From a virus, in the IMG/VR virus record IMGVR_UViG_3300032322_001062, positions 1-63,108 of that record: a stretch of DNA of 63,108 nt; one strand, given 5' to 3'. Under the pieces are notes generated by a model, which was not told the origin of the DNA, did no database searches, and saw only the letters and a list, made by a program, of their open reading frames with translations. The position numbers were made by a program, and so were the translations under genes. Below, piece after piece: positions 19,386 through 22,332 of this stretch; positions within the stretch are counted from its first letter, which is position 1, and each line of letters starts with the position of its first letter.

Positions 19386-19648
19386 GTGAGAAGCCCCGCG
19401 CAGTGAGAAAGTCCAAAAGCCTTCCTCCCTCCCCGGGCCCAGCTAAGTCATTGAAATCATTGAAGAAGTGAGAAGGTGAGCGAGTGAGCGCGTTTTTCCA
19501 ACCTTTTCTATATAATACTCTTACTTCTTCTCTCATAAAAAGGGTACGCTCACCATTCTCACTTCCTCACCTTCAGGGCTTACGCCCTTGATATATAAGC
19601 CTTTTTGCGGTGAGAATCCCCGGTGAGCGTTACGCTCCCGTAACTCAC
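19386..19648. promoter_or_regulatory. GTGAG/CTCAC inverted-repeat module A
   Basis: GTGAG occurs at 19386, 19403, 19468, 19476, 19484, 19610 and 19623. CTCAC occurs at 19549, 19558, 19566 and 19644. The central copies have 8-9 bp spacing and form an imperfect inverted repeat (19465-19482 against 19548-19566) around CCAACCTTTTCTATATAAT (19498-19516). The surrounding gap 18904-19878 contains promoters but no gene. Confidence 0.6.
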
Positions 19649-19682
19649 CTGGCCCCGTTGGACGGCGACCGGCGCCCCGCGC

Positions 19683-19745
19683 CCTTATGTAAGCGTAGGC
19701 ACGGTTTCTTTAACACGTCGCGGCCTTATGTAAACGAACGTGCCT
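19683..19745. repeat. Interlaced direct and inverted short repeats
   Basis: CCTTATGTAA occurs at 19683-19692 and 19724-19733. AGGCACG (19697-19703) and CGTGCCT (19739-19745) form an inverted pair. The repeats sit between module A and the early promoter at 19825; they may be protein-binding sites. Confidence 0.45.
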
Positions 19746-19824
19746 AGTGGTGACATTTGCCCCGGCCGAATGTCGGCGAATCGGGTTACACGCGATCGTT
19801 ACGAGTGCGGAATAATTATTTGAG

Positions 19825-19853
19825 TTGACGTTGGGCGGCGACCGGGCTAGAGT
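19825..19853 (+). promoter_or_regulatory. Rightward early promoter
   Basis: TTGACG (19825-19830), 17-bp spacer, TAGAGT (19848-19853). The predicted start is near 19860, followed by AGGAGG and ATG 19879. Confidence 0.6.
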
Positions 19854-19878
19854 GGTGGCGTTGTATAGGAGGTTCTGC

Positions 19879-20088
19879 ATGCTGAAGTGGTTCAAGCCGG
19901 AGTACCGGATCATACGGAATAGGTTCGGGTCGTATGAGGCGCAGGCCCGGCGCGGGTGGTGGCCCTTTTGGACCCACGTTCCCAGCACGCGCAGTTTGTC
20001 CGTGGAGCACGCCGAAGCCTATCTAATTGAGTATTTGGAGGTTAAGCGGGGCCGCGAAGAGGAAGTGCTGTATTTGGGGAGGATGTGA
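19879..20088 (+). CDS. Small early hypothetical protein
   Basis: A 69-residue basic, aromatic-rich protein from ATG 19879 with AGGAGG 7 nt upstream. No family recognised. The stop overlaps the next ATG by one base (TGATG). It is the first gene behind the 19825 promoter, a typical place for host-takeover proteins. Confidence 0.65.
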   Translation: MLKWFKPEYRIIRNRFGSYEAQARRGWWPFWTHVPSTRSLSVEHAEAYLIEYLEVKRGREEEVLYLGRM

Positions 20089-20255
20089 TGGCGATTCCGT
20101 TGCCGGCGATTCCGTTGCGCGTGGCTCAGCGTTATAAGCTGGACGAGCAGGACGAGATGGTTTATACGGGGTATAAGCTCCAGGTGAAGATGGCAGAGGG
20201 CTGGGTGAACGTGCCGATTGTGTTCGTGCGCGAAGGGGAGCCGGAACCGGAATGA
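20088..20255 (+). CDS. Small early hypothetical protein
   Basis: A 55-residue protein (MAIPLPAIPLRVAQRYKL start, EGEPEPE end) coupled to the preceding gene through TGATG. The N-terminus repeats AIPL twice, from a 14-bp direct DNA repeat. No function inferred. Confidence 0.55.
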   Translation: MAIPLPAIPLRVAQRYKLDEQDEMVYTGYKLQVKMAEGWVNVPIVFVREGEPEPE

Positions 20256-20353
20256 GGATGGGGTTTAAGGAGGCGCTGCTGGTGACGGTGTCGCACCGGG
20301 GGTGGGCTTTTGAGTGGGTTGAGTGGCGCCAGGCATGGGAGATTGTGGCGTAA
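20252..20353 (+). CDS. Very small Trp-rich early ORF
   Basis: A 33-residue ORF whose ATG overlaps the previous stop (ATGA). Four tryptophans in its last 16 residues. Coupling supports translation, but no family is recognisable. Confidence 0.4.
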   Translation: MRMGFKEALLVTVSHRGWAFEWVEWRQAWEIVA

Positions 20354-20466
20354 ATGGGGCAAAGTCTAAAAAATTGCGCGAATGTGGTAGGGGTATCCTG
20401 ACAAAAAACACGGCCGGCTAGATTTTTCCTGCCCCCACCACGCCTACCCCTGAAATCCAGGAAAAA

Positions 20467-20544
20467 ATGCCTAGGACGGGATTCTGGTTCGGGGCCGGAA
20501 CGGCGCTGGCCGGAGCACGGCTGTTGCGGGGCCGGAAGGAATAA
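20467..20544 (+). CDS. Possible 25-residue peptide
   Basis: ATG 20467 follows CCAGGAAAA. The peptide has a Gly/Ala-rich hydrophobic core (FWFGAGTALAGARLL) and a basic tail, like a minimal membrane peptide. The gap 20354-20687 otherwise holds only the terminator at 20.6 kb. Weakly supported. Confidence 0.25.
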   Translation: MPRTGFWFGAGTALAGARLLRGRKE

Positions 20545-20583
20545 ATGCCTGGGAAAACATTCCTACGGGGGGCACGGCAAAAA

Positions 20584-20612
20584 CCCCTAGGCCGGTTGAC
20601 CTAGGGGCCTTT
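20584..20612 (-). terminator. Strong leftward terminator, possibly bidirectional
   Basis: A perfect 8-bp inverted repeat CCCCTAGG (20584-20591)/CCTAGGGG (20600-20607). On the minus strand it is followed by GTTTTTGCC-like sequence (five T). On the plus strand the run is GCCTTTG. It ends the leftward unit 20688-21200 and may also stop the rightward early transcript. Confidence 0.75.
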
Positions 20613-20687
20613 GTTCTGGGGCCGCCCCGTTGCGCTTGGGGCCGGGGAGGAAAGGGGCCGGGCCGCGCTGGCCTAGCCCCTAGCCTA

Positions 20688-21200
20688 TCAGGCTGCGCGC
20701 TTCCCCTTCCGCGTGATCGTCACACCATGCGAGGCGCCAAGCCGGGCCGCCACGCTATAGGGGCCGGGCGCCGCCTTAGCCTTGGGCGCCACGGGGGCCG
20801 CCTTCACAACGGGGGCCGGGGGCGCCTTGGCCTTGGGGGCCGGGGGAGCGGGCGGCGCCTTGGGGGCTGGGGCCGCCTTAGACGCGGCAATCATGCGCGC
20901 CACCATCTTCTGCATGCCGGGCCATGCCGCCAATTCATCAAGCGTTCCGGCGCCGCTCAGAATGGCCAGCGCCCAAGCCTCGGCATTGGCCACTTCACTG
21001 TCATCTTCAACGTTGCCAGCCGCGAAACGCGCCGCGTCAAACCCAAGCTCCCCCTTCAAGATCTTGCCGGTGGAAATCGGCCCCATGTCGCCACGGCCGC
21101 CGGCCGCCTTGAAGGCGCCTTCAATGATGGCGCGCACCGCCGCCACTTCCTTCTCCGTCAGCGTGATGTTGTGCCACGCTTCAATCTTGTTCCGGGCCAT
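20688..21200 (-). CDS. Hypothetical protein with Ala/Pro/Lys-rich tail
   Basis: A 170-residue protein from ATG 21200 with an AGAGAGG site upstream. Residues 1-105 are a compact mixed helical domain (LTEKEVAAVRAIIEG...). Residues 105-160 are a histone H1-like PAPKAPPAPKAK tail, and the end is basic (ITRKGKRAA). The tail suggests nucleic-acid binding. It lies in the leftward island with the HNH gene, opposite to its rightward surroundings, and may be a later insertion. Confidence 0.65.
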   Translation of the reverse strand: MARNKIEAWHNITLTEKEVAAVRAIIEGAFKAAGGRGDMGPISTGKILKGELGFDAARFAAGNVEDDSEVANAEAWALAILSGAGTLDELAAWPGMQKMVARMIAASKAAPAPKAPPAPPAPKAKAPPAPVVKAAPVAPKAKAAPGPYSVAARLGASHGVTITRKGKRAA

Positions 21201-21444
21201 CTGATTAATCCTCTCTGCGCCCCTTGGCCGGGGCTCGGCGCCTTCGCTCCATTGCGTCGGCGGCCCCAAGCTCGGCACCGGGCGCAACCTTGTCAATAGG
21301 CTCCCGCCAAAAATAACGCATTTGTAATCCCGTGTTCCCGTCCCGTTCCCCTGTTGTTCACGTTCCGTTGCTTTCTGTCACACGTTGCGGGGCCGGGCCG
21401 ATCGGAACCTTTCCGCCTTCGCACCAATCCAGCGCGCCGCGCCC

Positions 21445-22092
21445 CTACCTACGCGCGCGACCCCACACCAGCACAGGATGCCGCCCAACGGCCAGGAAGA
21501 TATGCCTGGCGAGAGAGAGAGAGAGAGAGAGAGAGAGAGAGAGAGAGAGCTCGTTGGAGAGAGCGCGAGCGCGAGAAGCCCATTGCCCGAGTGAAATTAA
21601 TTCGGCGAGAGTGGCATCGTTCTTTAATTTATTCGCGCGAAGGCTAACCACTTGGACGTTGCCGGGAATGTAACCCTTTGAATTGTCAATGCGATCTATT
21701 GAAGGAGTTTCAGGGCATATTTTGCTTGCGAGTGAGATATAGTTTAGCTCGCATCCAAGAATAGGGCATTTTGTTGGAAGCTCTAGATCAGTTTCAGTTA
21801 GCTGAAACTCCTTGCCGCGATTTACTGCGCCTTTTTTGGTTCGTGCTAGAAGCAACTCTTTCCACTTGGATACATCCCAATAAGTTAAGATACCCCATTC
21901 GTGCAGCATAGATTCCTTTAGTGCGGCGCGTGCGCGCCAATTGCGCTGGCCAAGTAGGTTCTTTGTGACGCAAGCCTCTTTGAAGGCAATACAAAATTGC
22001 ACCCACCGCTCGGGCGAGACATGAGGCGGGCCGCTCTGGCGGCTATAACGGGAGGATTGTTTGGCTTTCATGAAAGGAATTATATCACACAT
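21445..22092 (-). CDS. HNH endonuclease (probable homing/free-standing type)
   Basis: About 215 residues; ATG 22092 or 22071 are both possible. Seen: CPILGCELNY, then PSIDRIDNSKGYIPGNV and SLRANKLKNDATLAEL, the pattern of phage HNH endonucleases with the DRID/GY/GN core. The body is AT-richer than its neighbours, suggesting acquisition. The C-terminus runs into a (GA)n tract that is read as Ser-Leu repeats, followed by about 20 unrelated residues, so the original stop was probably lost. It nicks or cuts DNA, likely for its own spread. Confidence 0.8.
   Translation of the reverse strand: MCDIIPFMKAKQSSRYSRQSGPPHVSPERWVQFCIAFKEACVTKNLLGQRNWRARAALKESMLHEWGILTYWDVSKWKELLLARTKKGAVNRGKEFQLTETDLELPTKCPILGCELNYISLASKICPETPSIDRIDNSKGYIPGNVQVVSLRANKLKNDATLAELISLGQWASRARALSNELSLSLSLSLSLSLARHIFLAVGRHPVLVWGRARR
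21511..21549. repeat. GA-dinucleotide microsatellite, 39 bp
   Basis: An uninterrupted (GA)19 plus G. It lies within the 3' end of the HNH frame and encodes alternating Ser-Leu on the minus strand. Repeat-number changes would shift the frame of the C-terminus. Confidence 0.95.
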
Positions 22093-22102
22093 GCCTGTGT
22101 GA
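22085..22102. promoter_or_regulatory. Palindrome at the HNH gene start
   Basis: TCACACA (22085-22091) and TGTGTGA (22096-22102) are perfect 7-bp arms with a 4-bp centre. The palindrome overlaps the candidate ATG at 22092. It could be an operator or an mRNA hairpin that limits translation. Confidence 0.45.
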
Positions 22103-22141
22103 TTCAAGGTGACGCCGCGTCGGGGCATTGTCACTTGGACG

Positions 22142-22332
22142 CTCACCTAGTTAAGCCGTTAAAAACATTGAGGATTTTGCCAAAGGTGAGGGAGTGAGCG
22201 GAGCGCGGCCAACCTTTTATATATGTTCTTTCTTTTCCTATAAGGAAAGCGGTCCCTCACCACGCTCACCTTCTCACTTTCGCGCGGAGAGCCTAGAGAT
22301 ACCTAGGTTTTTTAGGTGAGAGTGTAGGTGAG
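22142..22332. promoter_or_regulatory. GTGAG/CTCAC inverted-repeat module B
   Basis: GTGAG at 22186, 22194, 22316 and 22328; CTCAC at 22142, 22256, 22265 and 22273 (9- then 8-bp steps, as in module A). CGCTCACCTTCTCACTT (22263-22279) is the exact reverse complement of 19466-19482. CCAACCTTTTATATAT lies between the arms. The rest of the gap 22333-22558 holds no gene. Confidence 0.6.

Follow-up and report, generated by a model that had tools for sequence, protein, structure and literature searches.

Two GTGAG/CTCAC iteron modules as probable replicator sites of a 63-kb phage

Virus record IMGVR_UViG_3300032322_001062, a 63,108-bp stretch that was analysed in full and is referred to below as the window, carries two clusters of GTGAG/CTCAC repeats, modules A and B, in the hub where the leftward thyX gene (18265-18903) diverges from the early genes, which run rightward from 22661. 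Sequence comparison indicates that these modules are probably the replicator sites of the phage, acting as a pair of origins or as a single bipartite one comparable to P4 ori plus crr. They are probably recognised by a helicase encoded about 10 kb away, and the most likely initiator is a 489-aa P-loop protein with predicted affinity for the repeats. Because the iterons do not adjoin its gene, this protein would act in trans. In the mechanism envisaged here, a D5/SF3-like initiator helicase, probably arranged as two oligomers that face each other, would bind the iterons via a C-terminal winged-helix domain, and integration host factor (IHF) or a similar host protein could plausibly bend the spacers and thereby bring the outer iterons into the complex. 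The AT-rich centre would then melt, and two helicases would load there and start bidirectional replication. The presence of this arrangement in duplicate in a 63-kb phage group, and its recurrence at the 3' ends of many helicase genes that lack annotation, suggest that the design is a general one for replicators. It allows likely origins to be found from sequence alone and yields a directly testable initiator-iteron pair.

Two matching modules at a divergent hub

A first-pass annotation of the window had described two GTGAG/CTCAC modules with a shared plan and shared steps, and all of their elements are found at the positions claimed. GGTGAGCGAGTGAGCG (19475-19490) and GGTGAGGGAGTGAGCG (22185-22200) are followed downstream by CCAACCTTTTCTATAT and CCAACCTTTTATATAT, and the 17-mer AAGTGAGAAGGTGAGCG occurs exactly at 19466-19482 on the plus strand and 22279-22263 on the minus strand, with no third copy in the record. 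The modules had thus been placed correctly, but each is larger than described, with outer sites of opposite sense lying about 43 bp beyond the core arrays.

Clusters of this kind are not expected by chance, a concern raised in that annotation. Modules A and B contain 11 and 8 sites, respectively, compared with a peak of 6 sites per 300 bp among 200 first-order shuffles of the window, and the density outside the modules does not exceed 3 sites per 300 bp anywhere in the window. A letter-blind detector was also applied, which accepts any non-palindromic 5-mer that has at least five copies spaced by 8-10 bp and split between two opposed arrays with a gap of 30-90 bp. Modules A and B were its sole detections in the 63 kb, and 200 shuffled versions of the window returned none. 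The 45-mer with the highest AT content in the whole window lies in the centre of module A, starting at 19497. GC skew, suggested at the outset as a possible origin signal, tracks gene direction and does not place an origin by itself.

Conservation in related phages

A megablast search with the 16-26 kb region against a phage collection gave no nucleotide relatives, and related loci were fetched from IMG/VR via ThyX, yielding 31 loci with ThyX identity down to 72%. Absence of the modules from close relatives had been set beforehand as evidence against their significance; about 19 of the 31 loci (two of these cut by a contig end) have both of them upstream of thyX, and among the loci without both modules some contigs stop early. 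A more distant phage (L056) likewise has two modules. They are absent from HTVC023P and DSL-LC04, which are distantly related through their terminase. An exact match to the 17-mer in a further IMG/VR locus (L035) lacks a module and is probably due to chance; the other matches are two close relatives.

The plan is constant in the relatives: a gap of 54-75 bp separates the facing sites, which stand at 8- and 9-bp steps, from the opposed sites, and on each side a spacer of about 43 bp leads to the outer sites. The letters of the spacers vary while the GTGAG positions are unchanged. From 329 sites, the iteron consensus is (G/A)GTGAG with free positions after it, although these sites were gathered by GTGAG itself and hence only their flanks are informative. 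The interval from A to B ranges from about 1.2 to 5 kb, which indicates that the two modules are retained while the intervening DNA changes. Similarity between A modules is 0.767, whereas A and B of the same genome, and B modules of different genomes, both give 0.726. Since the likeness among A modules exceeds that of A and B within a genome, the two modules represent separate lineages.

These values also bear on the proposal that the modules are recombination sites which flip or delete the HNH-containing island. The variable A-to-B interval, with the HNH gene inside it in the window, would suit such a role. However, the similarity of A and B in the same genome is not above that of B modules in different genomes, and there is thus no sign of exchange between A and B. 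The polarity of A and B is the same in every relative; the pyrimidine-rich strand is identical in all 38 modules with a delimitable centre, and no inverted state was seen. Recombination sites are therefore hardly credible, and the flipping suggested in the first-pass annotation is not supported.

It is equally improbable that the modules act as a structured RNA with the facing repeats as its stems, as had also been suggested. GTGAG and CTCAC are able to pair, and complementarity of the inner flanks is slightly raised (87 vs 77.8 in shuffles, of 114, uncorrected for relatedness), yet the pairing is broken in many sequences, as where GTGAGCG stands opposite CCCTCAC. The centre lacks a stable fold or hairpin (mean z -0.6, DNA parameters), and a comparison with Rfam gave no match.

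The spacers may hold sites for a DNA-bending protein. IHF has the consensus WATCAANNNNTTR, and the conserved letters of the 43-bp spacer, TAAGTCATTGATATC, carry it on the opposite strand. Exact matches to this consensus number 34 in 11.8 kb of the relatives' modules and 12 in 266 kb of the remaining DNA of these loci, an enrichment of about 64-fold (binomial p = 5e-37, an overstated value because the relatives are not independent).

The candidate initiator

The 489-aa protein is present in at least 80 viral loci at 74-100% identity, and a profile search of sampled bacterial genomes recovered homologues in 8 of 289 from Alphaproteobacteria and 7 of 274 from Gammaproteobacteria. Its Walker A P-loop, GEQGSGKS, is invariant or almost so across 28 homologues, with weak AAA matches. 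NCBIfam gave no relevant match, and no primase domain was found by domain searches. A more diverse alignment improved the poor ATPase core of a first structural model and gave a predicted structure with a mean pLDDT (predicted local distance difference test) of 76, for which the top PDB matches are AsfvPrimPol and SaPI5 Rep; the first model also matched D5. The last 90 residues are predicted to form helix, strand, helix, helix, strand and strand, which is the order of a winged helix. Nine contigs bear the helicase gene without modules, and these are not counter-evidence because, judging from the map, the hub would fall past the contig end in each.

The detector found no array at the helicase gene of the window. 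Several bacterial homologues have convergent 9-bp arrays, of other sequences, located 15-103 bp beyond the 3' end of the gene. These were found by the detector in L270, L271, L276, L280 and L281, and by eye in L272, L273, L278, L279, L282 and L283. The array of L271 consists of three copies of GTCCGC, 67 bp and three copies of GCGGAC, and the words in others are AGCGT/ACGCT (L270), CACCGT/ACGGTG (L280) and CGTCCC/GGGACG (L281). Set to 6-mers with two copies per side, the detector gave 1 detection in 1900 shuffled loci. As a separate observation, the arrays of this largely unannotated helicase family encode low-complexity tails, e.g., SAPSAPSAP or DADGADGADA, and their sequence varies between elements.

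The same architecture in unrelated elements

A DNA pattern describing only the architecture was searched in IMG/VR and in genomes. Beyond the window's group, the IMG/VR matches are on contigs without protein similarity to the window. The array of L071, L059, L037, L075 and L076 lies in the 3' end of a primase/helicase gene or a few hundred bases past it, and the domains recognised include Prim-Pol (L071), Toprim (L076) and D5_N/P4-family (L075). Seven bacterial or archaeal loci (L087, L098, L105, L110, L133, L146, and L186) have the array at helicases homologous to the viral ones. Most pattern matches in bacterial genomes are repeats of another kind, namely long repetitive open reading frames (ORFs) of Aminicenantes and GTGAGAG repeats of Saprospiraceae and other Bacteroidota, and were not taken as support; opposed GTGAG-type repeats unlinked to helicases occur in many long Aminicenantes (CS4-C025) ORFs and Saprospiraceae regions. 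Several additional GTGAGTTTGTGAGTTT-type arrays were noted by the helicase but outside the core module, at L071:4800-5200 and L037:2590-2930.

The main rival to a replicator is transcriptional control, in which the modules would be operators at a divergent early-transcription hub and a phage regulator on the GTGAG arrays would switch both the leftward genes (thyX/RNR) and the early genes that run rightward. The short intergenic position between divergent genes fits this role, TATAAT-like text is found inside the modules, and one weak promoter-like match (19588-19617) overlaps module A. Better sigma-70-like promoters, however, are located outside the modules, at 19280-19252(-), 18961-18933(-), 19825-19853(+) and 22107-22079(-). 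Elsewhere, the same arrays are in or just past helicase genes and not at promoters, and operators would rarely be expected to have a palindromic multi-array plan around an AT-rich centre. Operators are thus an unlikely explanation, albeit the least unlikely of the rivals.

Partition and packaging sites are likewise typically built of short-repeat arrays, and the modules could in principle be partition or pac-like sites recognised by ParB, the small terminase or another DNA-binding protein of the phage. The array of L055 adjoins terminase-looking genes, in keeping with this possibility. In the window, however, no ParA/ParB-like protein was noticed and some 12 kb separate the modules from the terminase genes (5.5-7.8 kb), and the unrelated elements associate their arrays with helicases. 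A role in partition or packaging is very unlikely.

A number of observations weigh against a replicator served by the distant helicase. Some 10 kb separate its gene from module A, and most of the parallels have the origin beside the gene. The 489-aa protein has no Pfam match above the cut-off (DUF5906, with E 0.023, is below it), and BLASTP detected no resemblance between it and the L071, L075 and L076 helicases; the link to these proteins runs through predicted fold and architecture. Fold scores are moderate, with a best template modelling (TM) score, normalised by target, of 0.44, and the pLDDT of the ATPase core is about 50 or lower. No array was detectable in the homologues L274, L275, L277, L284-L286 and L288, and no helicase was recognised next to the array of L055. 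Lastly, the IHF sites of the window itself are one-mismatch forms only.

Taken together, the relatives, the helicase-linked arrays, the IHF enrichment and the predicted fold nonetheless favour the initial suggestion of binding sites for a multimeric protein or a replication origin, and replicator sites are the reading preferred here. A broader proposal is possible, if on balance doubtful. A large phage would use a bipartite satellite-type (P4/PICI-like) replicator in which a single helicase, encoded 10 kb off, has to bind A and B and bridge them, perhaps with the help of IHF bends. The same design, with varied iterons, would be common at the 3' ends of helicase genes from a bacterial mobile-element family that is largely undescribed.

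Feature positions and neighbouring genes

Table 1. Positions of the modules, IHF-like sites and candidate initiator in the window
Feature	Position	Strand	Description	Basis
Module A	19386-19648		11 GTGAG/CTCAC sites	Sequence; detector; conserved in relatives
Module A outer left sites	19386-19407	+		Site map
Module A core left array	19468-19488	+	3 GTGAG iterons (19468, 19476, 19484), 8-bp steps	
Module A centre	19489-19548		60 bp; AT 66% (window 40%); top strand pyrimidine-rich; contains TATATAAT	
Module A core right array	19549-19570	-	3 CTCAC iterons (19549, 19558, 19566), 9- then 8-bp steps	
Module A outer right sites	19610-19648		GTGAG at 19610, 19623; CTCAC at 19644	
Module B	22142-22332		8 GTGAG/CTCAC sites	Sequence; detector; conserved in relatives
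Module B core left array	22186-22198	+	2 GTGAG iterons (22186, 22194), 8-bp step	
Module B centre	22199-22255		57 bp; contains TTTTATATATGTTCTTTC	
Module B core right array	22256-22277	-	3 CTCAC iterons (22256, 22265, 22273), 9- then 8-bp steps	
Module B outer right sites	22316-22332	+	GTGAG at 22316, 22328	
IHF-like site	19444-19456	-	1 mismatch to WATCAANNNNTTR	Exact here in most relatives
IHF-like site	19581-19593	-	1 mismatch to WATCAANNNNTTR	Exact at equivalent spot in L018, L019, L024, L027
Candidate initiator	7791-9260	-	489-aa P-loop helicase-like protein; putative module binding	C-terminal winged-helix order

Several features of the surrounding genes were also recorded. The HNH ORF (22146-21445, minus strand; 21445-22146 in window order) includes a run of about 20 GA dinucleotides at 21513-21550, which encodes LSLSLSLS near the C-terminus; a run of this type is prone to slippage and could switch the frame of the ORF. 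The promoter-like site of the HNH gene (22079-22107, minus strand, TTGAAT-17-TATAAT) has a spacer palindrome, TCACACA-GGCA-TGTGTGA, that resembles a repressor operator. Further along, a family A DNA polymerase is seemingly split (35265-38228), with an N-terminal part at 35265-36209, a polymerase part at 36780-38228 and small ORFs in between. A 786-aa protein (43537-45897) combines a methyltransferase domain with an MptE-like (6-hydroxymethylpterin diphosphokinase-like) domain.

Comparison with known replicators

The first-pass annotation knew of no described phage element with this plan, but most of it is shared by the origins of phage-inducible chromosomal islands (PICIs), including the Staphylococcus aureus pathogenicity islands (SaPIs) (PMC6092414), and by crr/ori of P4. 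In PICI origins, two iteron sets flank an AT-rich region (PMC6092414), and iteron binding is a function of the C-terminal domains of SaPI Rep and of Cch2 (PMC7581432). As in SaPIbov1 and EcCICFT073 (PMC6092414, PMC7581432), each module has two sets of short iterons around an AT-rich region, and a D5/SF3-like initiator helicase with a C-terminal DNA-binding domain is encoded, here as a prediction. The origin of those elements is directly 3' of the initiator gene, whereas the modules are about 10 kb away from theirs. Furthermore, two modules are present here, each with extra outer arrays and, in the relatives, IHF-consensus spacers, and the host of the system is a 63-kb phage rather than a satellite.

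For P4, the features of ori and crr were read from the annotated record (NC_001609). Its GGTGAACA iterons stand at 9-bp steps in two sites that lie apart, and crr is just 3' of the alpha gene. The modules resemble these in being two separated sites that bear the same iterons, in the GGTGA letters common to GGTGAACA and the window iterons, and in having opposed arrays around a pyrimidine/AT-rich centre. They differ in that the window iteron is RGTGAGNN and not GGTGAACA, and in that the AT-rich stretch of P4 lies between TTCACC and GGTGAA, in divergent sense, while that of the modules occupies a convergent gap. The alpha protein also has a primase part, no counterpart of which was found in the 489-aa protein.

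The Rep proteins of iteron plasmids are not helicases but recruit the host helicase, and the iterons of these plasmids are longer and mostly in a single orientation. Their origins are similar to the modules in their iterons, AT-rich melting region and bending-protein sites (reviewed in PMC4980987). Overall, the modules appear to work like the PICI/SaPI and P4 systems without being filed as members of them. What is new here is that a 63-kb phage has a probable origin of a known type in two copies, both remote from the protein presumed to initiate at them.

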